In this document: piece after piece, positions 46,148 through 60,854 of the stretch
Numbering within the stretch: position 1 is the first letter of the stretch
Layout of the letters: the number at the start of each line of letters is the position of its first letter
Assembly: GCF_003403015.1 (NCBI RefSeq)
Contig: NZ_QURL01000001.1
Location: forward strand, 372,001-436,000
Origin: Fulvimarina endophytica
GTDB taxonomy: Bacteria; Pseudomonadota; Alphaproteobacteria; Rhizobiales; Rhizobiaceae
Direction of reading: 5' to 3'
DNA length: 64,000 nt
The notes under the pieces: model-generated
What the model was told of the DNA's origin: nothing
The model's database searches: none
The model's input: the letters and a program-made list of their open reading frames with translations, nothing else
Translations under genes and position numbers: made by a program

Positions 46148-47134
46148 ATGCAGCCAGATCCGACCGAAACCCGCCGCGGGCTGCTCCTCGCGATCAGTGC
46201 CTACGGATTGTGGGGCATCGTGCTGCCATTCTACATGAAGGCGCTGGATCACGTCTCGCCCGTGGAGATCGTGGCGCACCGCATCATCTGGGCGCTGCCC
46301 TTCGCGGCCATTCTCCTGATGTATCAGGGGCGCTTCGCCAGGACCGTGCGTTATCTCGCGGACATGCGAACGACGGCCCTGGCACTGCTGACGGCGGCTC
46401 TGATCTCGATCAACTGGGGCGTCTACGTCTACGCCATCGTTGCCGGCCAGACGGTGGATGCGGCGCTCGGCTATTACATCAATCCGCTTCTCAACGTGCT
46501 TCTGGCCGCCCTGGTTCTGAAGGAGCGTCCGAGCCGGCTTCAGGCGATCGCCGTCGGGCTCGCGACGGTCGGCGTTGCGATCATGACGGTGAAGGCCGGA
46601 GGGCTGCCGTGGATCTCGCTCGTCCTCGCCTGCACCTTCGGGTCCTACGGCCTGGTGCGCAAAATGGTGAAGGTCGATGCGAGCGAGGGCTTCTTTCTCG
46701 AAGTCGTTCTCTTGACGCCCTTCGCGGTGGCCGCGCTCTTCATCGTCCCCGTGAGCCATTTCGGCGTCATTCCCTACGAGACCGTGATGCTGATGGGCGC
46801 CGGCCCCCTGACCGCTGTTCCGCTGATCCTCTTTGCGGCCGGAGCGCGGCTTCTGAACTTCGCGACGGTCGGCATCCTGCAATATCTCGTGCCGACCTGC
46901 CTGTTCCTCATCGCCGTCTTCATCTTCGGCGAGCCATTCAGCGTTTGGCAACTGGTCGCTTTCGCCTTCATCTGGACCGCGCTCGGCCTCTACACGGTGA
47001 CGCTTCTGCGGCAGGCGAGGGTGGAGCGCCAGAGGCGACGCCGACGCCAACCCTCCGCCGCGCAGACCTCCGCCCAGATGGACGGTCAGGCCGCAGCGCT
47101 CGATCAGCCCCCGTCGGACCAGGCGATCCGGTAG
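46148..47134 (+). CDS. rarD: RarD/EamA family transporter
   Basis: A ~328-aa membrane protein with about ten transmembrane helices and two EamA repeats. The N-terminal GLLLAISAYGLWGIVLPFY and central INWGVYVYAIVAGQTVDAALGYYINP (residues ~85-110) are diagnostic of RarD, linked to chloramphenicol sensitivity in Pseudomonas but of unknown substrate. ATG 46148 lies eight bases after AAGG; 46142 and 46109 are alternatives. The last 31 bp overlap the end of the convergent GNAT-nitrilase gene. The C-terminal tail is Arg/Gln-rich. Confidence 0.88.
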   Translation: MQPDPTETRRGLLLAISAYGLWGIVLPFYMKALDHVSPVEIVAHRIIWALPFAAILLMYQGRFARTVRYLADMRTTALALLTAALISINWGVYVYAIVAGQTVDAALGYYINPLLNVLLAALVLKERPSRLQAIAVGLATVGVAIMTVKAGGLPWISLVLACTFGSYGLVRKMVKVDASEGFFLEVVLLTPFAVAALFIVPVSHFGVIPYETVMLMGAGPLTAVPLILFAAGARLLNFATVGILQYLVPTCLFLIAVFIFGEPFSVWQLVAFAFIWTALGLYTVTLLRQARVERQRRRRRQPSAAQTSAQMDGQAAALDQPPSDQAIR

Positions 47135-48654
47135 AGATCCAGACGGCGGTCGCGCAGGTTCTTCACCGAACCCTCGTAGCGGGCCCAGGACAGGGTCGCC
47201 AGATTGAGATCGGCGACGGTCACCATCTCCACGTTTTCCGAGGCTTCGGCCGCGATGCCGTCGCGCGCGAAGGGAAAATCACAGGGCGTGAAGATGCCCG
47301 ATTGCGCATATTCGATATCGAGATTGTCCACATTGCCCAGATTGCCCGTCATGCCGCTCGTGACGACATAGCACTGGTTCTCCACCGCGCGTGCCTGACA
47401 GCAGTAGCGCACGCGCAGATAGCCGTGCCGCGTATCCGTGTTGAACGGCACGAAGAGGATGCGCGCACCCTGATCGGCCAGACGGCGGCCGATCTCCGGG
47501 AATTCCGAATCGTAGCAGATCATGATGCCGACCGGTCCGCAGTCGGTCTCGATCACGTCGAGCGGTTCGCCGCCCTTGATCTGCCAGTAGGTCTGCTCGT
47601 TCGGCGTGGGATGGATCTTCTCGCGGGTATGGACGGAGCCGTCGCGCAGGAAGGCGTATCCGACGTTCTGGATATCCCCGTCCTCGGTCTTGGTCGCATG
47701 GCTGCCGCCGATGATGTTGATGTTCCGGCGGATCGCCATTTCCGTCAGCCTCTCGACGAATTCGGGCGTGTGCTCGGTCAGGCGCTGGATGGCGGCTTCC
47801 GGCTTCAGTTCCTCCGGCTCGCACGACAAGAGCATGAGCGTGAACAGCTCGGGGAAGACGACGAAATCCCCGCCATATTCGGAGGCGACCTCCACGAAAT
47901 ATTCGACGGCATCGTAGAACTGCTGCGGCCTGCTGATGGTCCGCGCTTCCATCTGGACCGTGACGACGCGCACAATATCCGGATTGCCGCGATTGACCGG
48001 CTGATTCTCACGCTCGGGATCGTAATACGGATTGCGCCAAACCATCAGCACGCCGTATCCGCCGGAGTCCGCATCGGCGGGATAGTAGTTCTTCAGGAGC
48101 CGGACCGGCTCGAAGCCTGCATTAAGATGGAAGGTGGCGACGGGGTCCTTCACGTCGTTGCGCTTCACGGCTTCCAGATAATCCTCGGGCGATGCGAATT
48201 TTCTGGCATTGCGCTTGTAGCCCGGCATGCGGCCGCCGAAGGCGATGCCCTTGAGATGCTTGTCGGTCGCAAGGCGCCGCCGGGCATCGTAGAGCCGCTT
48301 CCCGATCCGCAAGCGGCGCTTGTCGGGATCGACACAGACCTCCATGCCATAAAGCCATTCGCCCCGCCGGTCGTGCATCGCAGCGTATCCGCCGCCGGTG
48401 ACTTCGTTCCAGGTGTGCTGGTCGAGCGCCTTTCGCTCCGGCAGCATCATGGTCGCGGCGTAGCCGACCACCTCGCCGTCGTAGACCACGACGAACTGGC
48501 CTTCCGCGAATGCCGACATCTGACCGAGGATCATGCCCCGCGTATAGGGCGCCTCGTTCCGGAAGACCTTCGAAGACAAGGCGATGATCTTGTCGACATC
48601 TCCCTTCTCGGCAACGCGAACGACGATCTTCGGGGTTTGGCTTTTGTCGACCAT
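47104..48654 (-). CDS. GNAT acetyltransferase / carbon-nitrogen hydrolase fusion
   Basis: A 516-aa two-domain protein. Residues 1-225 resemble a GNAT N-acetyltransferase (VRVAEKGDVDKIIALS, VCVDPDKRRLRIGKRLYDARR). Residues ~230-500 are a nitrilase-superfamily domain with the full Glu-Lys-Cys triad: FPELF, REKIHPTPNEQ and MICYDSEFPE. This fusion is known in bacteria and archaea and has been linked to amidase/acetyl-transfer reactions of small metabolites, but the substrate is not established. The 3' end overlaps rarD by 31 bp on the other strand. Confidence 0.9.
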   Translation of the reverse strand: MVDKSQTPKIVVRVAEKGDVDKIIALSSKVFRNEAPYTRGMILGQMSAFAEGQFVVVYDGEVVGYAATMMLPERKALDQHTWNEVTGGGYAAMHDRRGEWLYGMEVCVDPDKRRLRIGKRLYDARRRLATDKHLKGIAFGGRMPGYKRNARKFASPEDYLEAVKRNDVKDPVATFHLNAGFEPVRLLKNYYPADADSGGYGVLMVWRNPYYDPERENQPVNRGNPDIVRVVTVQMEARTISRPQQFYDAVEYFVEVASEYGGDFVVFPELFTLMLLSCEPEELKPEAAIQRLTEHTPEFVERLTEMAIRRNINIIGGSHATKTEDGDIQNVGYAFLRDGSVHTREKIHPTPNEQTYWQIKGGEPLDVIETDCGPVGIMICYDSEFPEIGRRLADQGARILFVPFNTDTRHGYLRVRYCCQARAVENQCYVVTSGMTGNLGNVDNLDIEYAQSGIFTPCDFPFARDGIAAEASENVEMVTVADLNLATLSWARYEGSVKNLRDRRLDLYRIAWSDGG

Positions 48655-50291: not shown

Positions 50292-51020
50292 TCACTTGCT
50301 GGAGCGGCACTGCTGATCGAAGGTGAGGATCGGCCAGCGGTTCATGCGCGTCGCGGTCTGCTTGATCCAGCCGGAGAAATTGGCGACCTGGGCCCGGCAC
50401 CAGTTCTCTCCAGACTGCGACTTGCACTCTTCGAGCCGGACGCAGGTTCCAGCAGGAATCGTCGCGACGACGTCGGCATCGCTGCGAGCTTCCTTGCGAG
50501 CATTGAGCGCGACGAGAACGCCCGCCTCGACGCTTCCGCCGTTCGGCGCGATCTCGGGAAGGCTCATATCCTTAGCGTCGGCGCAACTTGCGGTGTAGCC
50601 GTAATAGGTGCAGGGCGAGCGGGTGGACGGGGAGGGCGATCCGGCGCTTGCGGACTGTGTCACCCGCTCGAACACGATCGGGCCGCTGGTGGTGTCGCCG
50701 TTGATCCGCCGCTGATTGCCGCCGAGACGCGCCACGATCTTGTTGCTCGAATCGCGAAGGGCGAGCTGGTTGTCGACGATCGCCCAGTGATCGAGGTCGC
50801 TGAGCGTTCCGCCGCAATGTTCGGCCGACAACCCGAACCCGCCGTCGACGCTCTGGGAACGCAACTCCACGCGGCAGGCGCCGTCCTTCGTAAAACTCGG
50901 ATCGAGGGTCTGCCACGTTCCGGAAAACGCGGCGACAAAGTCCGCCTCGCTCTGGGCCAGGACGGGAGCCGTCAAGGCGAAAAAGGCGGCAGCCGCCGTC
51001 GATGTATAAATCCTGATCAA
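50292..51020 (-). CDS. Secreted Inh-like (AprI) / SH3 domain protein
   Basis: A 242-aa exported protein. A signal peptide ends near APVLAQ. Residues ~25-110 resemble the AprI/Inh metalloprotease-inhibitor fold: FSGTWQ, CRVELRSQ, two cysteines about 30 residues apart, then HWAIVDNQLALRD. A linker follows, then a bacterial SH3-like domain at residues ~165-230 (ALNARKEARSDADVVATIPA and VANFSGWIKQ). It is the last gene of the curli arm, 46 bp after the CsgH-like gene on the same strand. Periplasmic or surface location is inferred; a role in protecting or anchoring fibres is a guess from position. Confidence 0.65.
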   Translation of the reverse strand: MIRIYTSTAAAAFFALTAPVLAQSEADFVAAFSGTWQTLDPSFTKDGACRVELRSQSVDGGFGLSAEHCGGTLSDLDHWAIVDNQLALRDSSNKIVARLGGNQRRINGDTTSGPIVFERVTQSASAGSPSPSTRSPCTYYGYTASCADAKDMSLPEIAPNGGSVEAGVLVALNARKEARSDADVVATIPAGTCVRLEECKSQSGENWCRAQVANFSGWIKQTATRMNRWPILTFDQQCRSSK

Positions 51021-51066
51021 GATCTGTTCCCCGTACGATCTCTTTTGCTGGGCGTTCGGGCGGGCG

Positions 51067-51477
51067 CTACCTCTGCGTCAGCACCTGCGCCGATGCGATC
51101 TCGTGACCGCCGGCCTGAACGACGAAACGCACGCTCAGGCTATCTCCGGCGGAGGCGTTGACGCTGGTGGTCGCCACAACGGCGGTTTCCCCCGCTGCCA
51201 ATTTGGCGGTGCCGCCCTGGGCGGTGTTGATCCGGCCGGATGGCCCGGACTTCTCGATCGTGATCCTGCCCTCGTACTCGCCGGCGCTGAGACCGATGAT
51301 CCGCCCGGCGATCCGCAAGGTTCCGTCCTCCCCCGAAACGTCGATCGCGCCGATGGCCGAAGGCATCGGCGTGGCCCCGTCCGTCGCGGGTACTGGTGAA
51401 GAGGACTGGGCGAAGGAGGCGGTTCCGGCAGGGGCCATGGCCATGATCAGGAGCGAAAGGCAGAATGCTGCGCGCAT
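51067..51477 (-). CDS. csgH: CsgH-like curli accessory protein
   Basis: A 136-aa exported protein with a signal peptide (ending near ASFAQ) and an Ig-like beta-sandwich domain. The latter half, from RITIEKSGPSGRINTAQGG to VRFVVQAGGHEIAS, matches the alphaproteobacterial CsgH proteins, which act like CsgC to stop curlin aggregating in the periplasm. Its position directly after a curlin gene (1-nt gap) supports this. ATG 51477 is the start since it leads straight into the signal peptide. Domain assignment is by pattern reading and should be confirmed by profile search. Confidence 0.72.
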   Translation of the reverse strand: MRAAFCLSLLIMAMAPAGTASFAQSSSPVPATDGATPMPSAIGAIDVSGEDGTLRIAGRIIGLSAGEYEGRITIEKSGPSGRINTAQGGTAKLAAGETAVVATTSVNASAGDSLSVRFVVQAGGHEIASAQVLTQR

Positions 51478-51478
51478 C

Positions 51479-52186
51479 TCACTGCCCGAAGGTCGACTGC
51501 GTGATGAAGACCGTTGCGCCATTGCTGACCACGCTGGGCGGCGCGCCGACGAGATTGTTTCCGATCTGATTGTAGATCACGTTCGTGCCGGGCGCGCCGA
51601 CGACCGAGAGAGCGGCGGCATTGTTGTTGCCCTGCTGGAGGATGCCGCCGAAGACCTGGTTGCCTTCCACGTCGACTTCCGCCTGATTGTCGTTGCCGAT
51701 CTGGATCGCGCCGGCGCCGGAGAGCTGCCCGTTCACGGAGACGTCGGCGGAATTGCCGCGTCCGTCCTGGAAAACGAAGGCCGTGTTGCCTCCGGCGAAA
51801 TCGGAAGCCAGGGCCGAGCCTGCGTCCGGAGTGGCCGAGCGGCCGAGCGTTCCCGCAGCCGCATCGACGGCGATCGTCGCGCTGTTGCCCTCGCCGCTCG
51901 TCCCTGAATTCTGCTCGAGGGCGATTCGGTTGCCATTGCCGCCATCGAGGATGGTGGCTGAATTGCCTGCGCCGATCTGGCGCGCGAAGGCGGACTTGTC
52001 ATCGTCGAGGATAAGGGACCGTCCACCCACGATGCTTCCGACTGCTTCGGACTGGTCGACGATCAGCGTGTTCTGCCCCCCGTCCTGCGTGATCCGCAAC
52101 TGATTGTCCTGAGCGTAAGCCAACGTTACGGAAACTGCAGAGACGAAGATTGCGCCCGCAATGGCAGGGAAGGGGTGCAAGAACAT
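51479..52186 (-). CDS. Curlin-repeat amyloid protein, small (235 aa)
   Basis: A 235-aa secreted protein with signal peptide to about LAYAQ and imperfect curlin-type repeats in which a Gln and an Asn recur 5-6 residues apart, such as ITQDGGQNTLIV, ARQIGAGNSATIL, AIQIGNDNQAEVDV and LQQGNNNAAALSV. The spacing implies a stacked beta-strand fibre core. ATG 52186 follows GGAG at good distance (an in-frame GTG is one codon earlier). It may play the nucleator (CsgB-like) or subunit role; the two cannot be told apart here. Confidence 0.82.
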   Translation of the reverse strand: MFLHPFPAIAGAIFVSAVSVTLAYAQDNQLRITQDGGQNTLIVDQSEAVGSIVGGRSLILDDDKSAFARQIGAGNSATILDGGNGNRIALEQNSGTSGEGNSATIAVDAAAGTLGRSATPDAGSALASDFAGGNTAFVFQDGRGNSADVSVNGQLSGAGAIQIGNDNQAEVDVEGNQVFGGILQQGNNNAAALSVVGAPGTNVIYNQIGNNLVGAPPSVVSNGATVFITQSTFGQ

Positions 52187-52223
52187 CACAGTCTCCGTGG
52201 ATGGCTTCTATACTCGCCCTCTA

Positions 52224-52727
52224 CTACCATGATTGTTGTGATATGGATACCATATTACCGTTCCCGACCTGCGAAAAACCAGCGATATTGCCGCTTCCGA
52301 TCTGGCTCACGCTGGCCTGGTTGCCCCGACCCTCGATGAAGGCGGAGAGTGTGTTGTTCGCGCCGCGCTGGGCGGAGGCGAAGAGATTGTCGCTGCCCAC
52401 CACCTCGACGGTCATCGCGTTGCCGTAACCCTGCTGAAGCAACGAACCGAAGGGAAGCCCGTCGATGAGAGGCTTCGCGGCAAGACCTTCGCGCCCGCCG
52501 TTGCGATCGCCGCGAATGTCGATCGTGATCGCATTGGCGGAGAGGTCTGAACTCGAGTTATAGGTCTGGCGAATGTCGAGGCCGTTGTCGTTGCCCTCGA
52601 CCGCCAAAACCAGCGTGTCGAGGCTGTCGGCCGTGGTGTCGATAATCAGCCTGTTCTCAGTGGCCGAGGCGGTCGAAGCAGCGAGCAATCCGGCGGTTGC
52701 GAGAAGAAGAAGGCGCATGACGGTCAT
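52224..52727 (-). CDS. Curlin-repeat amyloid protein, small (167 aa)
   Basis: A 167-aa secreted protein close in size to E. coli CsgA/CsgB. A signal peptide ends near ASTASA. The first half has loose repeats, LVLAVEGNDNGLDIRQ for example, and the last 60 residues are regular: AQRGANNTLSAFIEGRGN, VSQIGSGNIAGFSQ, VGNGNMVSISQQSW. ATG 52727 is used; ATG 52718 is also possible. It lies 37 bp upstream of the 235-aa curlin. Because of size it is the best candidate for a classic curlin subunit or nucleator. Confidence 0.85.
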   Translation of the reverse strand: MTVMRLLLLATAGLLAASTASATENRLIIDTTADSLDTLVLAVEGNDNGLDIRQTYNSSSDLSANAITIDIRGDRNGGREGLAAKPLIDGLPFGSLLQQGYGNAMTVEVVGSDNLFASAQRGANNTLSAFIEGRGNQASVSQIGSGNIAGFSQVGNGNMVSISQQSW

Positions 52728-52856
52728 CCGATCCGTTGAGTTGGATCGATGATGCCGCAGTCCTTCTCACGCCCTCTTGCGCAATCTTTTCAAATTGTAT
52801 GGATCTGCCGTAACGTCGACGAACCTCGCATCACGGTTAAGACTTTCGAACGATCC

Positions 52857-54440
52857 TCAATACTGGCCGATCGACGCGCTGTTGCCCTCGCCCCCCTGCC
52901 GCACGCGCGCGAGTTGTCCCTCGCCGATCTGGCCGATACCGGCCTGATTGCCGTCGCCGACAGTGGTGATCATGGCCGAATGCGATGTGCCGGCCTGGAA
53001 GATCCCGCTAAGGTTCTCGTTGCCCACGATCGAGACCGAAGCCGTATTGTCCCGTCCGGCCTGAACGATGCCCCCCTGCGCGAGAAGGCTTTGAAGGAGC
53101 GCATCCCTGTCATCCCGTCCCGGGATCGATGCGCCGACATCGTTCCGGCTTCCGACGATCGTTACATCGGCGCGGTTCGAAAGGCCCGACTGGTTGATGA
53201 GGAGGTCGTTTGCGTCTCCCTCAAATGACAGCGATGCGATATTGCCGAGCCGGATGCCGGACTGGCGCGAGAACACTGCGTCCGAGTCCTGCACGATCGT
53301 GGCCGTGTTCCCATCGCCGGTCTGGCGGGCGTTCGTCTCGTTTCCGTCGCCCGTCATCGTCACGAACAGTCCGTTCTGAAGACCGGACTGCGAAAGGGAG
53401 AAGAGATTGCCGTCGGAACCGCCGCCTGTCGACGAGGCGCCGATGGTCAGTTGCAACTGGTTGCCGTCACCGACCTGCTCCACCGAAGCCGCGTATCCGG
53501 CAAGCTGCGAGCCCTGGGCGCTCATCGCGCGATAGCCGCCGATGCCTTCCCCCCCATTGTCGTCGCCGAAGATCGAGATGCCGGCGAGATTGTCGCCCCC
53601 GCCCGATGTCGTGAAGCCGGTCTGGCGAACCTGATCGACGAAGTTGCGGTCACCGACGAGCGACAGATCGAGCGCATGGCCCTGGCCCGTCTGCTGCAGG
53701 TTGCCGATCGTGTTGTCCTCGCCGGTGCTGATCAGGGTTGCCTGATTGGCCGCGCCATCCTGGGATGCGATGCGTAGGGCGTTGCCTCGCACGCTCTGCA
53801 AGACGGAAAGGCTGTTCTGCGCGCCGCTCTGGCGTATCTGCCAGATCGACTGACCGAAGCCCAACTGGTCGACCTCGAGACGATTGGTACCCGTCGTGGA
53901 CGCCGTCGGCAGCCATTGCTGGGCGAGTTCCTGGAAGAGGTGGTTCGCCGGACCGGACGATTCACCGAGCCGGCTCGTCGCCGGGTCGTAGCGGCCGCCG
54001 ATCTGCCGTATCTCCGCGCTGTTCGTAATGCTGGTGCCGGCGGAATCGGCGCGCTGATCGATGGCGCCGATCGTGCTTCCGCCTCCCATGTCGCGGCCCG
54101 ATCGTTGCTCGACGATTAGCTGGTTGACGTCGCCTGCCTGGGTGAGACCGGAGGCCGATCCGACCGTGCCGGTCAGAAAGCCGGGAACGCCGATCAGGTT
54201 CGAGGGGCCGACGGCATTGTCTTCGCCGACCTGTGTGATCGTCAGCGTGTTGCCCGCGCCGAGCTGATTGAGGCGGAGGTCGTTCGACGAGCCGCCGACG
54301 ATGTTGCGGGCACCGGTCTGATCGATCACCGCCTCGTTCTGGTCGCCGACCTGACCGAGAAACACCTCGTTGGACTGCGCGAAGGCCGCGGAGGCGGAAA
54401 GCCATAGAGCGAAGGCCGGAAGAACGCGATGCAAGACCAT
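52857..54440 (-). CDS. Very long curlin-repeat amyloid protein (527 aa)
   Basis: A 527-aa secreted protein with a signal peptide ending near AAFAQ. It has roughly 25 curlin-like strands, each with Gln and Asn/Asp at regular places: LGQVGDQNEAVIDQTG, NQLGAGNTLTITQVGEDN, VEQVGDGNQLQLTI, and the regular end region ITTVGDGNQAGIGQIGEG. Less regular loops separate blocks, e.g. residues ~110-170. At over three times the CsgA length it could form a long solenoid or cross-beta fibre subunit. It stands 97 bp downstream of the 520-aa curlin, with a stable hairpin between them. Confidence 0.85.
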   Translation of the reverse strand: MVLHRVLPAFALWLSASAAFAQSNEVFLGQVGDQNEAVIDQTGARNIVGGSSNDLRLNQLGAGNTLTITQVGEDNAVGPSNLIGVPGFLTGTVGSASGLTQAGDVNQLIVEQRSGRDMGGGSTIGAIDQRADSAGTSITNSAEIRQIGGRYDPATSRLGESSGPANHLFQELAQQWLPTASTTGTNRLEVDQLGFGQSIWQIRQSGAQNSLSVLQSVRGNALRIASQDGAANQATLISTGEDNTIGNLQQTGQGHALDLSLVGDRNFVDQVRQTGFTTSGGGDNLAGISIFGDDNGGEGIGGYRAMSAQGSQLAGYAASVEQVGDGNQLQLTIGASSTGGGSDGNLFSLSQSGLQNGLFVTMTGDGNETNARQTGDGNTATIVQDSDAVFSRQSGIRLGNIASLSFEGDANDLLINQSGLSNRADVTIVGSRNDVGASIPGRDDRDALLQSLLAQGGIVQAGRDNTASVSIVGNENLSGIFQAGTSHSAMITTVGDGNQAGIGQIGEGQLARVRQGGEGNSASIGQY

Positions 54441-54482
54441 GGCAGGAAATCTCCGCGATAGGATGCGTCTGAGGACGCGAGA

Positions 54483-54511
54483 AGGTCGGCCGGGAAAGCC
54501 CCGGCCGACCT
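54483..54511 (-). terminator. Strong hairpin between the two long curlin genes
   Basis: A perfect 12-bp GC-rich stem (AGGTCGGCCGGG and its complement) with a 5-nt loop lies 26 bp after the 54538 curlin stop. The 3' tail is only weakly T-rich, so it could be a partial terminator or a stabiliser that lets the first curlin mRNA outnumber the rest. Confidence 0.6.
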
Positions 54512-54537
54512 CTTATTCGACGAGTTCCGTCTACCGC

Positions 54538-56100
54538 TTACAGGCGGCCGTTCGGGGCGCCGCCCTGGGTCACATTGAGGACGTTGCCGTTCCCGCCCTG
54601 ATCGAAGTTCGTGTAGTTGCTGCTTCCGAACTGGGAGACCAGCGCGCTGTTTCCGTTACCGGAAACGGTACCGAAGATCTCGTTGTCGCTGGAGGTCTGG
54701 AAGAGGGTCGTGTCGTTCCCGTTGCCCGAAACATCCAGGTCGACCAGGTTGTTCATCCCGCCCTGGGAGGTGATCACGGTGTTGGTGTCACCAGAGATGT
54801 TCAGGCTGGCATTCTGGAGCGAACCGAGCTGGCTCAGGGAAACGGTATTGCCGAGGCCACCGTCGATCGCAACCGAAGCGAGATGGTCGCTTCCGTCCTG
54901 GAACATGACCGCAGTATTGAACGAGCCGCCGTCGATCGACAGGCCTGCGCCATTACCATTGCTTGACTGATCCACGAGGACGGTGTTTCGGTTCGCATCG
55001 TTGTCCATGCCGATGACGAAGGTGCTTCGGCCGGACTGGGTGGCGACGACGCCGTTGCGGTCGCTGCCGTTGGCGATCGAGACGAGGGCGCTGCCGAAGT
55101 CGGACTGGGTCGAAGTGATCTCGTTGCGATCGGACCCGGTGATCTCGAGTGCGAGGTTAGCGTTATTGGTCTGCGAGAGCGTCAGCGTATTGCCGTCGCC
55201 GTCGTTGACGGCAACATTACCGACGTTGTCGGTCGCGGTCTGCGAGAGCGTGATGATGTTGCCGTCGCCTGCGCCGACAAGCACGTTGCCGAAGTTGTAC
55301 GCGTCAACCTGCGAGACACCGATATCGTTGTCATCGCCGTCGTTCACCGAAACCGTGGCGCTGTTCTCGAAGGCCCAGGTCTCGGGGTCGTTCTGCGTGA
55401 TCGTGACCTTGTTGTCATCGCCCATGGTCGAGCTGGAGGCGCTGTTAACTTCGCCGATCTGCTCGATCGTCGTGTTGTTGCCGTCACCGTTCTGAGCGAG
55501 ATTGGCCGTGTTCGCATAGCCCGCGTCGAAATCGAAGGGGGACTTGATTTCCTGCGTGACGTCCGCCGTGTTGCCCTGACCGGTCTGGGCGATCGAGGTT
55601 ACGCGGCTGAAGGTGCTGCCGGTACCGCTCTGCGTCACGGTCGCCGTGTTCTGGCCATTCTGGGTGACTGCGTCGACGACGCTTCCGGCGCCGGCCGACT
55701 GATCGATGGTCAGCGTATTGCCCAGTCCACGTGCGGGACCTTCCTGAACGACGGATCCGACCACGTTGTCGTCCGAGGACTGCGTGACGTCGATCGAGTT
55801 ACGGTTGCCATACTGCTCGACGCCAACTCCGTCGAGGCCGATCACGTTGCTGTTGCCGCTCTGCGTAACGGTCAGCGAGCCGCGGGTGCCGCTCTGCAGC
55901 AGGAACTGGTCGCCGCTACCCGCCTTGTTGTCGTCACCCGTCTGCGTGACGGTGGCCTCGTTGGCGCGAGCGGTTGTGGAGCGCTGCGACGTCTGGGAGA
56001 CGAAGGCTTCGTTGCCGTTGCCGGCCGACTGCGCGAAGGCGGCGCCGCTGAGAAGCGTCAGCGCCGTGGCAGCCAGAAGTGAAGTCTTGAAAATGGTCAT
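54538..56100 (-). CDS. Very long curlin-repeat amyloid protein (520 aa)
   Basis: A 520-aa secreted protein with a signal peptide ending near GAAFAQ. The rest is one continuous array of about 35 strand units of 11-13 residues. Q-type units such as ATVTQTGDDN, LTVTQSGNSN and LTLSQTNNAN alternate in the second half with G/D-type units such as VAVNDGDGN and LSIDGGSFN. Composition is very rich in Asn, Gln, Ser, Thr, Gly and Asp, with almost no Lys and no Cys. ATG 56100 follows GAAAGGA at ideal distance. First gene of the minus-strand curli arm, hence probably the most highly expressed. Confidence 0.88.
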   Translation of the reverse strand: MTIFKTSLLAATALTLLSGAAFAQSAGNGNEAFVSQTSQRSTTARANEATVTQTGDDNKAGSGDQFLLQSGTRGSLTVTQSGNSNVIGLDGVGVEQYGNRNSIDVTQSSDDNVVGSVVQEGPARGLGNTLTIDQSAGAGSVVDAVTQNGQNTATVTQSGTGSTFSRVTSIAQTGQGNTADVTQEIKSPFDFDAGYANTANLAQNGDGNNTTIEQIGEVNSASSSTMGDDNKVTITQNDPETWAFENSATVSVNDGDDNDIGVSQVDAYNFGNVLVGAGDGNIITLSQTATDNVGNVAVNDGDGNTLTLSQTNNANLALEITGSDRNEITSTQSDFGSALVSIANGSDRNGVVATQSGRSTFVIGMDNDANRNTVLVDQSSNGNGAGLSIDGGSFNTAVMFQDGSDHLASVAIDGGLGNTVSLSQLGSLQNASLNISGDTNTVITSQGGMNNLVDLDVSGNGNDTTLFQTSSDNEIFGTVSGNGNSALVSQFGSSNYTNFDQGGNGNVLNVTQGGAPNGRL

Positions 56101-57448
56101 TGCAAGTCCTTTCAGCTCGAAGTCGCAACCCGCGTCCCGTAGATTGGCGGATGCGAGAATGAATTCTTGATGCGCCGGTTTTCCAGCGTGTCGTTGCGGA
56201 GCCAGACCCGTGGCCTGGCGCCGATTTTTCACCGAGTTGAGATGAGAGAGAACCAGAGAAACTCTGAAAGATGACATGAAGACAGTAATCACCTGACAGA
56301 AAGAGTCAGAATGCTGCAATTACTCTCGACATCTTTGGATTTTTTTCCGAACCTGACGGACGTCTTCACGACGACCCCGACAGAACCCCCTCGCTCGATC
56401 GCAATACCAGAGAGGGTTCTCCTCTCTTCGAAGATTGCGGGGGTATCGCACCCCTCGACCGGCCCGCTATCTTGAGGGAGTGTTTACACCAGGGGCGATT
56501 TTCGAGTCAACGAAATTAACCCCACGTAAGCCATTTAACGCCTGCTTAACCTTTAAGACTAAAATTTTAGGATTATCTAGTCCCGGCCGAAATCGGTTGG
56601 TGGCGAAAGGCTCTGTGAGATATCAAAAGCTTAAAATACTTTGCTATGCATAGCGAAGTAAAAAATGGGGCGGCCGCCCTTAAGACTTCTGCGCGTGAGC
56701 GCAGGTGGTCATTGGGTGACGGGCGAAAATGCGCGGCCGATCGAGCGGCCATCGGCAGAAAAGTTCGTACGGCAATGGTCCTGATGCCGCGCTTGGATCG
56801 GTACCCGCCGGCCAGATTTACCGACTCGTTTCTTACGCAATCGAAATACTCCGCCAGCGAAAGCCCGGCTGAGAAAATGATGTCGGCGCAGTCTGCCTGT
56901 CTGTGCAGTCGCCCTGCATTCCTAAGCCACACGACGAATATCCTTATGGATTTGGTGACGGGGCCTGCGTCGCCTGTCCGATCGAGGCCTGAACTGAAAT
57001 AATCGATCCGACTGCCGATCGGAAAGCCGGTTTGGGAGGGTCTCAGGCTCGGTCGAGCAGAGCGCGGCGCAGGAGGGCTGTCATGGAGAGGGGATGGACG
57101 GGGCCACATCGTCGTAGGATCGGTATGGTTCGTGGTTTGCTCTTCTTCCTCTGGGGCATCAACCGCTGAAGAATCCGAGGAGGGGCATCAGTTGTCTTCA
57201 TCGCGCCCTGCTGGAATGTGTCACGCAGACTTCCGAATACCTGAACCCAATCCAGTTTCGGACAGTGCCGATCGGTCATTGACTGTACCAGCGAGATGCG
57301 GGCGGGCCTTCCGTAACGGTAATCAGTAAGGCATACCATTTACCATCCTGTGGTGCAGAATGGCCACGTGAAGTGATTCAAGGCCACGATCCACGTTTTC
57401 TTATTCACCCGCTGCCACGCTTCCCCTATACAAGGCCAAACTCAGGAA
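56101..57448. promoter_or_regulatory. 1.35-kb gene-free divergent region of the curli locus, with AT-rich palindromes
   Basis: No credible gene is found between the outward-facing curlin and csgF genes. The stretch from about 56,500 to 56,680 is distinctly AT-rich compared with the genome. It holds TTAAC at 56516, 56535 and 56546, an inverted repeat CTTAA-3-TTAAG (56545-56557), a perfect palindrome CTAAAATTTTAG (56559-56570) and another, GCTATGCATAGC (56643-56654). A CTATAC hexamer at 57426-57431 may be the -10 of csgF. Regulator binding is inferred, not shown. Confidence 0.5.
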
Positions 57449-57931
57449 ATGAGGTCTTCCGTGTCCCTGCGCTTCCGGCTTATCAGTATATCTCTCTTAG
57501 TATCCGTCTCCGGCTCCGCAACGGCAGGTGACCTCGTCTATCAGCCGATCAATCCGTCATTCGGCGGCAACCCGCTCTATTCCGCTCATCTTCTCGGGAT
57601 CGCCAACGCCCAGCGTGACGCGACGGCGAGTGACGCCGGCCGCGATGATGCAGCCTCCGCGCTTACAGCAGGCCGAACGCAGGCTGGAACGTCGGATGCC
57701 GATCTGTTCGTACGTCAGTTGCAGGGCCGGCTGCTTTCCGCGCTCGCCGGGCAGGTGACGGACGCGATCTTCGGGGACCAGCCTCAGACGTCGGGAACGG
57801 TTCGGTTCGGCGACACGACGGTGACATTCCAGCGGGGGCTGGCCGAGATTCGCCTGTCGATCCTCAATTCCACCGACGGAACGATCACCGACATCGTCGT
57901 GCCGGTTCTTCAAACGAGCGCGATCAACTGA
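57449..57931 (+). CDS. csgF: Curli assembly protein CsgF
   Basis: A 160-aa exported protein with a signal peptide (ending near SATAGD). The mature start DLVYQPINPSFGGNPLYSAH is the diagnostic CsgF motif that plugs the CsgG pore and helps nucleation at the surface. The C-terminal part, with VRFGDTTVTFQRGLAEIRLS, is the family's exposed domain. The start may be ATG 57449 or, better placed after GAGG, GTG 57461. csgG lies 160 bp downstream on the same strand. Confidence 0.93.
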   Translation: MRSSVSLRFRLISISLLVSVSGSATAGDLVYQPINPSFGGNPLYSAHLLGIANAQRDATASDAGRDDAASALTAGRTQAGTSDADLFVRQLQGRLLSALAGQVTDAIFGDQPQTSGTVRFGDTTVTFQRGLAEIRLSILNSTDGTITDIVVPVLQTSAIN

Positions 57932-58091
57932 CCGGCAGTCTGCCGGTAACTTCAAAATGGCATCACCTTCCGTGCCGGAGGGGAACGAGCCGCCTGTCGA
58001 CGTCTCCATGCTGTGAGGCGATGAAGGGCTCGTCCGGCGATGAGGGTGGGGCAGGGCCGGGGAGCCGACAATGACTTCGAGGGGAGCTGCC

Positions 58092-59303
58092 ATGCAGCGT
58101 CGTAAAACCGTGTCGCGGGCACTTCTGATGGGGGCGAGCCTCCTGCTTCTTTCCGGTTGCGTCACCAGTTCGCCGCTCGACGCTCTGCCGGTCGTCGACC
58201 CCGTGAACCAGCCCAATGACGAACTTCGACGCATTCCGCCTCCGGCAAGCAAGACGGTGGTCGCCGTCTACGATCTCGAGGATCTGACGGGGCAGTTCAA
58301 GGAACGCGAGAACGTCCAGTCCCTGTCGCGGGCGGTCACCCAGGGTGGCGCGCCCATGCTCATCAAGGCCTTGCAGGACGCCGGCGAGCGTCGCTGGTTC
58401 ACCGTTCTGGAGCGCAAGGAGCTGGAAAACCTCCTGCGCGAGCGTCAGATCGTGACGGAGATGCGCCGCATCTACAAGAACGAGGTGAGCATCGACGCCA
58501 ACGTGCTGCCGCCGCTGATGCATGCCGGGATCATCATCGAAGGCGGGATCATCGGTTACGACACCAACATCATGACCGGCGGCATCGGTGCCCGCTTCCT
58601 CGGTATCGGCGGCGATACGAAATATCTGCAGGACGTCGTCACCGTGACCCTGCGCGCGGTCTCCACGAAGACGGGCGAAGTGCTGACGAGCGTGACGAGC
58701 CGCAAGGCGATCGCCTCCTACGCGCTTCAGGGCGGCGCGTTCCGCTTCGTGAAGATCGACGAATTGCTCGAGGGCGAGGCCGGGGTCACCTATAACGAGC
58801 CCAAGCAGATCGCCGTCCAGTCGGCGATCGAGAAGGCCGTCGAAGCGATGATCGTCGAGGGATCCGAGCTGGGTCTCTGGAGGTTCGCCGATCCGCACGC
58901 CGGCGCCGCCTATATCGCGAGCTATCGTCAGCAGAAATACGGGAACCGGTTCACCGCAGCCGCTGCGGCGCCAGTCCAGCCAAAAAGCTCTGGTCCCGTC
59001 GAAGTCGCCGCGACCGTCCCCAGTGCACCGAGGCAGGTCACGGTCACCCAGCGGCGTGTTCCGGCGTCCCAGGCCCGGGCGGCCCAGCAGGGCGTTCCCG
59101 CCCGCGTGACCCCGGCGGGTGGATCGGTGAGGCAGGTTCCCGGTGTCGGCTTCGTGCCGGCCGAAGACGCGTCGGATATCCGCCAGCCGGTCGACTCGAA
59201 CCCGCCCCAGCTTCCTCCGGCCCGTCAGGCGGATGAGCCCGCGGTGGGTATGAATCGCGGCTCGGATGCAGCGGAAAGCGAAGTCCAGGTCTCTCGTCTC
59301 TGA
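58092..59303 (+). CDS. csgG: Curli secretion channel CsgG with C-terminal extension
   Basis: A 403-aa outer-membrane lipoprotein that forms the nonameric curli export pore. The lipobox LLSGC places the lipidated cysteine at residue 23. The CsgG core (residues ~50-285) has VAVYDLEDLTGQFKE, WFTVLERKELENLLRERQI and the pore-lining GYDTNIMTGGIGARFLGIG. E. coli CsgG ends around here at 277 aa; this protein continues ~118 residues as a Pro/Ala/Gln-rich, low-complexity extension. ATG 58092 is preferred to 58071. It is the second gene after csgF. Confidence 0.94.
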   Translation: MQRRKTVSRALLMGASLLLLSGCVTSSPLDALPVVDPVNQPNDELRRIPPPASKTVVAVYDLEDLTGQFKERENVQSLSRAVTQGGAPMLIKALQDAGERRWFTVLERKELENLLRERQIVTEMRRIYKNEVSIDANVLPPLMHAGIIIEGGIIGYDTNIMTGGIGARFLGIGGDTKYLQDVVTVTLRAVSTKTGEVLTSVTSRKAIASYALQGGAFRFVKIDELLEGEAGVTYNEPKQIAVQSAIEKAVEAMIVEGSELGLWRFADPHAGAAYIASYRQQKYGNRFTAAAAAPVQPKSSGPVEVAATVPSAPRQVTVTQRRVPASQARAAQQGVPARVTPAGGSVRQVPGVGFVPAEDASDIRQPVDSNPPQLPPARQADEPAVGMNRGSDAAESEVQVSRL

Positions 59304-60201: not shown

Positions 60202-60672
60202 TCAGTGCGCTTTCCAGGGAAGATTGGCCACCACACGGAGCGGCAGGCGCTTCGCGGTGATCTTGATGATTGCGCCGTGGCCACGATCTTCGGCAGGAAG
60301 GGCGGGCTCACCGTTCGGAACGGCTGCGACCTCCCGAACCGCCGGAAGGCGTGCTTCGGGCGAAGGATCGGTTCCGGTCTTGGGTTTTTCACTTGTCGGC
60401 GCGTCGGCATATCGGACGCCTGCGAACATGGTCCTGCGATAGACGAGGCGGGCGGGCCGCGCCGGTTCGTCGCCGATCTTGATCTCGAATTCCTTCGGCA
60501 TGTGCGCGGATTCGGCGAGCGTCAACAGCGCGCCGGTCGCGGACATGTTGCGGACCACGCAGTCGAAGGTGGAAAAGCCGTTGTTGAAGATAATCTTCGC
60601 ACGCTTCAAAACGCGCATGCGGGGTGCCGTGCGACGCTCGGCGTCATCCGCTTCTGTTTCGAGCAGCCCCAT
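60202..60672 (-). CDS. PilZ domain protein
   Basis: A 156-aa soluble protein with an N-terminal PilZ-like domain (residues 10-85). The RxxxR-like segment RTAPRMRVLKR and the following NMSATGALL (an N/DxSxxG motif) suggest cyclic-di-GMP binding, although spacing is not perfect. The C-terminal ~70 residues are Pro/Ala-rich and variable. ATG 60672 lies eight bases after GGGGA; 60693 is an alternative. c-di-GMP commonly controls matrix such as curli, but the link to the neighbouring curli genes is only positional. Confidence 0.78.
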   Translation of the reverse strand: MGLLETEADDAERRTAPRMRVLKRAKIIFNNGFSTFDCVVRNMSATGALLTLAESAHMPKEFEIKIGDEPARPARLVYRRTMFAGVRYADAPTSEKPKTGTDPSPEARLPAVREVAAVPNGEPALPAEDRGHGAIIKITAKRLPLRVVANLPWKAH

Positions 60673-60854
60673 CTCGATCGGTCCCCGCATCATGGCACAT
60701 GCGCGGAACTTCGCGCGGAACTGGTTAAGACGAGCTTAAAGGCCGGCGCACGTGCATGCGGATCGATGTCGCATGCCGGAAGACAGGCGGGGTTGCGAGC
60801 GGCATTTTGGCGGTTATCGGACCAAGGAGCGATGTGGAGCGCTCCGCTTCCTGT

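Follow-up and report, generated by a model that had tools for sequence, protein, structure and literature searches.

A curli locus of the CsgFGH type with giant and small curlins and an adjoining Inh-SH3 protein in Fulvimarina endophytica

Curli are protein fibres found in bacterial biofilms. The best-studied curli are built from one short major subunit and one nucleator, and the CsgG-CsgF pore belongs to the established knowledge of their secretion. In enterobacteria the genes are organised as csgBAC and csgDEFG, whereas the CsgH-type curli of alphaproteobacteria carry csgH beside the curlin genes and have been reported without csgE (Dueholm 2012, PMC3521004). The CsgH of Rhodopseudomonas was found to inhibit CsgA amyloid formation and amyloid nucleation (PMC4838910). 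Here we describe a curli-making locus of the CsgFGH type in a stretch of 64,000 nucleotides of Fulvimarina endophytica (contig NZ_QURL01000001.1, positions 372,001 to 436,000; the window), which has the curlin repeats, the CsgG pore and CsgF in common with enterobacterial curli. In contrast to these, the genome has no CsgE, CsgH is present instead, and the four curlins span 167-527 residues compared to ca. 150 for CsgA and CsgB; they also fail to reach the equivalog cut-offs of CsgA (NF007470, 160 bits) and CsgB (NF007506, 165 bits), their best scores being 75.5 and 73.4 bits, respectively. To the CsgH-type curli as described in the available parts of the 2012 survey, with which it shares csgH beside the curlins and the lack of csgE, the window adds csgF, csgG, two giant curlins and a protein combining an Inh-type fold with an SH3 domain, termed Inh-SH3 in the following. 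What looks new is the conservation of these genes as a cassette that combines Inh-SH3 with as many as four curlin classes in a fixed order; the giant curlins themselves are of an already known sort.

The locus and its conservation as a cassette

The locus (50292-59303) consists of eight genes. On the minus strand, two giant curlins of 520 (54538-56100) and 527 residues (52857-54440) are followed by curlins of 167 (52224-52727) and 236 residues (51479-52189), csgH (51067-51522) and the 242-residue Inh-SH3 protein with its TTG start (50292-51020), while csgF (57449-57931) and csgG (58071-59303) lie on the plus strand. An earlier note on this DNA, made from the letters alone, had already reported all eight genes within this range and their two directions, and differs only in giving 235 instead of 236 residues for the fourth curlin. 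Its claim of a curli locus with long curlins is likewise borne out, as all four proteins exceed the Pfam cut-off of the curlin repeat (PF07012, 20.7 bits) beside CsgF, CsgG and CsgH. The scores decrease along the gene order from 101.7 bits in 11 stretches for the 520-residue protein (scanned as 521 residues, one in excess) and 67.9 bits in five stretches for the 527-residue protein to 40.7 and 34.8 bits in three stretches each for the two smaller ones, and the Pfam scan found no other domain in any of the four. A Sec signal peptide was recognised by eye in the 520-residue protein. In the whole genome (4.37 Mb in 28 contigs), curlin matches are confined to this single locus.

The secretion genes are assigned with varying ease. 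CsgF (PF10614) scores 87.0 bits against a cut-off of 25.8, and CsgG, the lipoprotein secretion pore (PF03783), 189.6 bits against 20.8. The latter, the only CsgG above the cut-off in the genome, matches the Pfam domain with residues 57-271 of 410 and extends by ca. 140 residues beyond it; among the cassette carriers CsgG comprises 322-453 residues as called, compared to 277 positions in the NCBIfam CsgG model, the lower value stemming from locus L104, where the gene is split by the call into two overlapping parts that differ in frame. CsgH passes the NCBIfam model NF041112 (66.4 bits, cut-off 35) and stays below the Pfam CsgH cut-off (12.8 versus 27 bits), and a sequence search of solved structures with it retrieved nothing at E≤0.1; its true start is probably the ATG at 51477, one base past the stop of the 236-residue gene. 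A genome-wide search for CsgE gave no match at E≤1, with an E. coli control giving a match. CsgC and CsgD are not among the eight genes, a statement confined to the locus since no genome-wide search was made for either. Promoter-like and terminator-like sites occur at the level of shuffled sequence (one versus a shuffled mean of 1.7, and nine versus 7.6).

A contig scan with the window CsgG yielded 12 loci, of which 11 belong to named bacteria and one to a Bacteroidetes metagenome-assembled genome. The named carriers, all Hyphomicrobiales, are Aurantimonas marianensis, A. marina, A. coralicida, A. manganoxydans, Aureimonas psammosilenae, A. ureilytica, Mangrovicella endophytica, Consotaella salsifontis, Tianweitania sediminis, Rhizobium albus and Pararhizobium haloflavum. 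In 11 of 11, csgF-csgG, at least one curlin of class A, a curlin of class D (classes as defined below), csgH and inhSH3 are clustered; in Aurantimonas coralicida and Aurantimonas manganoxydans most or all of the Inh-SH3 gene is beyond the fetched flank, and it was located by genome search. Adding the window, locus L037 of another genome of its genus (G002) and eight loci from f44, a second family within the order (eight of eight read carry the cassette), 21 cassettes were obtained, and each of them shows the arrangement csgFG-A(1-3)-B-C-D-csgH-inhSH3 or a version without B and/or C. Among the 19 cassette loci compared for adjacency, csgFG is divergent from the curlin genes only in the window; on the same strand it stands downstream of the curlins in Consotaella and upstream of them in the remaining compared loci.

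Two further kinds of loci help to place the cassette. Four of the other CsgH loci read (L146-L149) encode two short curlins of 143-174 residues, csgF and csgG not being in the stretch. The Bacteroidetes locus (L056:9539-15652) presents a parallel multi-curlin layout of csgF, csgG and four curlins of 300, 440, 372 and 186 residues; csgH is missing from this stretch and Inh-SH3 from the entire genome.

Four curlin classes and the length of the giant subunits

The curlins were named by position: class D adjoins csgH, class C is the gene of 166-188 residues before D, class B the giant before C or D, and class A the rest, so that the four window proteins are A, B, C and D in their gene order. When the f44 loci were compared with the group of the window and its named kin, the best BLASTP match across the groups was of the same class for 73 of 73 curlins (28 A, 16 B, 14 C and 15 D). 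This number refers to the curlins entered and not to all observed, since L037, L049 and L052 were not entered and, for class D, the proteins from L047, L050 and L051 were set aside for an over-long start of the open reading frame; class profiles, which were trained on close kin, placed the omitted curlins in the class expected from position. The window proteins found their cross-group partners at 30.7% (A, E 7e-30), 32.5% (B, alignment length 535, E 1e-35), 41.8% (C) and 31.8% identity (D). Class-profile scores at other loci are mostly low, since 14 of 16 other curlin-bearing loci score at most 90 bits for every profile. The other two are locus L141, where one gene reaches 140 bits for A and another 86 bits for D, and the Bacteroidetes genome with up to 146 bits for B and 103 for A; no curlin was seen in L043, L138 and L143 among the further loci examined. 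In a third family of the order (G153), L144:20-3076 contains curlins scored as A (375 bits) and B (552 bits) together with csgFG on a contig that ends before the expected C, D, csgH and Inh-SH3. Because the matches across groups are class-true and the class scores at most other curlin loci low, A-D look, judged from their sequences, like old and separate lineages and not like recent copies.

Classes A and D are present in 21 of 21 cassettes, and in 16 all four classes, and hence giant and small curlins as a set, occur together. Class A varies between 304 and 639 residues across the cassettes (365-639 among the entered proteins) and occurs in one to three copies, whereas class B is restricted to 476-570 and class C to 166-188 residues (14 proteins entered); class D spans 235-282 residues as entered, with some starts probably over-long.

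The repeat content of the window curlins is far above chance. QxGxxN motifs number 10, 13, 4 and 5 in the proteins of 520, 527, 167 and 236 residues, compared to means of 0.49, 0.48, 0.09 and 0.24 and maxima of 4, 4, 1 and 3 in 500 shuffles, a 20- to 44-fold enrichment over the shuffled mean. At the published mean of ca. 23 residues per repeat the mature giants would hold 21-22 repeats, and the AlphaFold2 model of the 520-residue protein (mean predicted local distance difference test score (pLDDT) 74, predicted template modelling score 0.74, 18 aligned rows) contains 38 strands of at least three residues from residue 30 onwards, corresponding to ca. 19 two-strand rungs. The two long curlins thus possess about 19-22 repeats each, and the strand count fits the roughly 35 strand units proposed beforehand. 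The best fold matches of this class A model are β-helix enzymes, adhesins and tailspikes, with EtpA on top (Z 19.7), and no curlin chain is found among the 50 matches listed. Those β-helix proteins are right-handed. Published curlin models, in contrast, are described as left-handed (Sleutel 2023, PMC10192328), and we consider the model as support for a β-solenoid and not for its details, handedness included.

The same note had suggested subunits several times longer than E. coli CsgA, which in its view might give a fibre with fewer joints or a distinct stiffness. Long they are; exceptional they are not, as curlins of up to 22 repeats (Dueholm 2012, PMC3521004), of 4-62 repeats, in a distribution that has secondary maxima at about 15 and 22 (Sleutel 2023, PMC10192328), and of 3-52 repeats (Adv Sci 2025 review, PMC12822426) are on record in the accessible parts of these surveys, which rules out the giant curlins as a novelty. 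Genomes with several curlins are also known, with up to 30 copies per genome (PMC10192328). The window giants share the repeat and the predicted β-solenoid with the published long curlins (R15.5 and up to 62 repeats), ca. 22 repeats being a published local maximum; they differ from those in that their length classes correspond to gene class and gene position. Another long chain was seen in a genome of the same family (G039), where a curlin-like protein of 1173 residues with 44 loose repeat motifs adjoins csgG (L042:4643-8164, plus strand); neither a csgH nor an Inh-SH3 match is present in the 19 kb read there.

The Inh-SH3 protein and its association with csgH

The least familiar part of the locus is the Inh-SH3 protein, a gene to which the first description of the locus had attached no weight. 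The window protein scores above the Pfam cut-off for SH3_4 (29.9 versus 24.1 bits) and marginally below that for Inh (PF02974; 24.7 versus 25 bits), the latter family being matched at E≤0.01 by six of nine aligned proteins. Eight orthologues align with it over their full length at 42-52% identity, and eight cysteines are kept in 19 of 19 Inh-SH3 proteins compared. Its modelled N-terminal domain adopts the eight-stranded Inh barrel (blocks within residues 21-120 at pLDDT 69-94) and resembles U-Omp19 of Brucella (7mhw; Z 14.6, root mean square deviation 2.1, 95 aligned residues) and, at a greater distance, Inh of Erwinia (1smp_I, Z 10.2) and APRin (1jiw_I, Z 9.7). As unrelated folds match at Z values of about 8 and less, the first match lies well above this level and the other two a little above it. 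Omp19 was also retrieved by sequence (E 7e-8). The SH3 half is poorly modelled (block pLDDT ≤60), and the SH3 call rests on the Pfam match. Compared to the inhibitors of family I38 (Inh, APRin, U-Omp19), with which it shares the N-terminal β-barrel, Inh-SH3 is distinguished by the SH3 domain, the eight invariant cysteines, the lack of a lipobox cysteine (by eye) and seemingly of a long disordered N-terminus, and by strong homologues which in the examined set occur only beside csgH.

This last feature emerged from a search independent of the curli genes. Strong homologues (>200 bits) were found in five of 101 relatives and in 14 of 397 genomes of the order, which amounts to 18 genomes, the window genome being in both samples. 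All 18 have CsgF as well as a CsgH match immediately upstream of the homologue on its strand, as read from the locus or from coordinates; some of these CsgH matches are weak, the lowest scoring 23.3 bits with our own profile, and those of G178, G234 and G278 fall under the NCBIfam cut-off. With eight further named genomes gathered through CsgG, the genomes carrying a strong homologue number 26, and in every one of them inhSH3 comes next after csgH, a count which leaves aside three weak matches in the order and many matches below 30 bits that cover part of the protein among the relatives. The three weak ones (G131, G238 and G363, 59-69 bits) have no adjoining CsgH and no curlins by a motif filter in the 12-15 kb read. 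Beyond the order, the 385 genomes drawn from the class contain a strong match only in the window genome itself, and one weak match (G645, 42.8 bits) among the 384 others. It is a genetic association with curli that these data establish for Inh-SH3.

In the available text of three surveys (PMC3521004, PMC10192328 and PMC12822426, the last counting operons by csgA-H models), Inh-SH3 is not mentioned, nor does it appear in the titles or abstract openings of the literature on curli with csgH/SH3, csgF/csgG, Aurantimonas, Aureimonas or Rhizobiales, a coverage that takes in little of the subscription literature. We regard the Inh-SH3 gene as a concrete candidate for a so far undescribed curli factor. 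The name CsgI is unsuitable for it, having already been given to YccT (PMC10002515).

A possible division of labour and its alternatives

With moderate confidence we favour a curli system of the CsgFGH type in which distinct curlin classes are accompanied by Inh-SH3 as a periplasmic guard. The curlins would be exported from the cytoplasm by their Sec signal peptides and held unfolded in the periplasm by CsgH. The CsgG pore, with CsgF as its gate, would then let them pass the outer membrane, and at the cell surface they would fold to β-solenoids which stack end to end into an amyloid fibre. Class A would be the probable bulk subunit because it varies in both length and copy number, and B, C and D might be specialised subunits because they are single-copy and less variable in length, C and D being candidates for a nucleator, anchor or cap. 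The most likely role of Inh-SH3, suggested by its protease-inhibitor fold and by a gene that travels with csgH and these curlins, would be that of a secreted, disulfide-rich accessory guarding the long unfolded curlins in the periplasm, either by blocking an envelope protease or through direct contact with the chains, while the SH3 domain would anchor it to the envelope.

Several observations weigh against this proposal. Class B is missing from L037, L046 and L048, and class C from L037, L046, L104 and L111, with only a 69-residue C-like frame in L048; L037, which lacks both, even belongs to the window's own genus. B and C are thus dispensable in some carriers, which argues against a strictly four-part fibre, and an obligate set of all four classes is ruled out by the five of 21 cassettes in which B and/or C is missing or short. 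No match to CsgF was obtained in G001, a further genome from the genus of the window, and the 19 kb read at L141 hold curlins resembling A, C and D but neither csgH nor inhSH3. Nor do profile scores tell major from minor subunits among the classes, the CsgB profile outscoring the CsgA profile in seven of ten A, seven of ten B, seven of seven C and two of three D proteins tested; an assignment of A-D to CsgA or CsgB roles on this basis was discarded, as the scores fail to separate the classes. Concerning Inh-SH3, CsgH occurs in 68 and CsgF in 31 of the 397 genomes of the order; most CsgH genomes and 17 of the 31 CsgF genomes are without a strong homologue, and the protein is accordingly not needed for curli in general. 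In favour of the proposal, its pairwise divergence tracks that of CsgG (r=0.94, 171 pairs), although this correlation partly reflects shared phylogeny. Since the 13 f44 genomes form one genus and the named carriers are close kin, the carriers represent few independent lineages. Finally, the inhibiting part of U-Omp19 is its long disordered N-terminus (PMC9486555), and protease inhibition by Inh-SH3 is uncertain because this segment seems to be absent. The classical members of I38 inhibit by means of the barrel and some ten N-terminal residues (PMC9486555), elements which Inh-SH3 could have.

The best surviving alternative, possible although on balance rather unlikely, is an ordinary alphaproteobacterial curli system in which repeat numbers drift, the paralogues are largely redundant and Inh-SH3 is a hitchhiker. 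It draws on the wide variation of repeat number in published surveys, as far as these are accessible, on the variable length and copy number of class A and on the five incomplete cassettes; against it speak the narrow lengths of B and C where present, the class-true best matches of all 73 curlins entered and the adjacency of Inh-SH3 to csgH in all 26 genomes. An improbable alternative is that Inh-SH3 substitutes for the missing CsgE as a periplasmic adaptor docking curlins on CsgG. The absence of a CsgE match from the genome, in line with the reported lack of csgE in alphaproteobacteria (PMC3521004), would suit such a function, as would a secreted-looking, disulfide-rich protein conserved with the pore genes. 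However, CsgE is not among the Pfam and NCBIfam matches of Inh-SH3, and in the 17 CsgF genomes without a strong homologue the pores seem to work anyway (CsgE was not searched there), which disfavours a general stand-in for CsgE. That the 527-residue and other curlins are adhesins or matrix proteins using the repeat as a rigid rod and not as a fibre subunit is highly improbable, because the resemblance of the class A model to rod-like adhesins and tailspikes, EtpA foremost, is a generic β-helix match of little weight, and although large curlin-repeat adhesins are known in Shewanella (PMC3521004), the four proteins here have the curlin repeat as their sole Pfam domain and adjoin CsgF, CsgG and CsgH.

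The favoured system of distinct curlin classes with a periplasmic guard might be taken further, tentatively and with less likelihood than its basic form, to a distinct curli subtype: a heteromeric amyloid fibre with A and D as constant core and B and C as near-constant additions, a division of labour that goes further than that between major subunit and nucleator, and an Inh-barrel and SH3 protein guarding giant precursors as a new class of periplasmic factor; on present evidence we consider this unlikely. The cassette offers a natural system in which to ask how amyloid fibres are shaped by the length and the mixing of their subunits, and it poses the question how a CsgG pore handles unfolded chains of 500 residues without CsgE.

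Some neighbouring genes were noted in addition. LuxR-type response regulators composed of a receiver and a GerE domain adjoin csgG in Mangrovicella (L047:11260-12045) and Consotaella (L050:11210-11935) and are possible CsgD-like regulators; none is among the eight curli genes of the window. At 47104-48654 on the minus strand, the window encodes a 516-residue fusion of a GNAT acetyltransferase and a carbon-nitrogen hydrolase. A PilZ-domain protein (60202-60693, minus strand; 24.3 bits, cut-off 22.5) lies ca. 0.9 kb beyond csgG and might possibly link curli to cyclic di-GMP.

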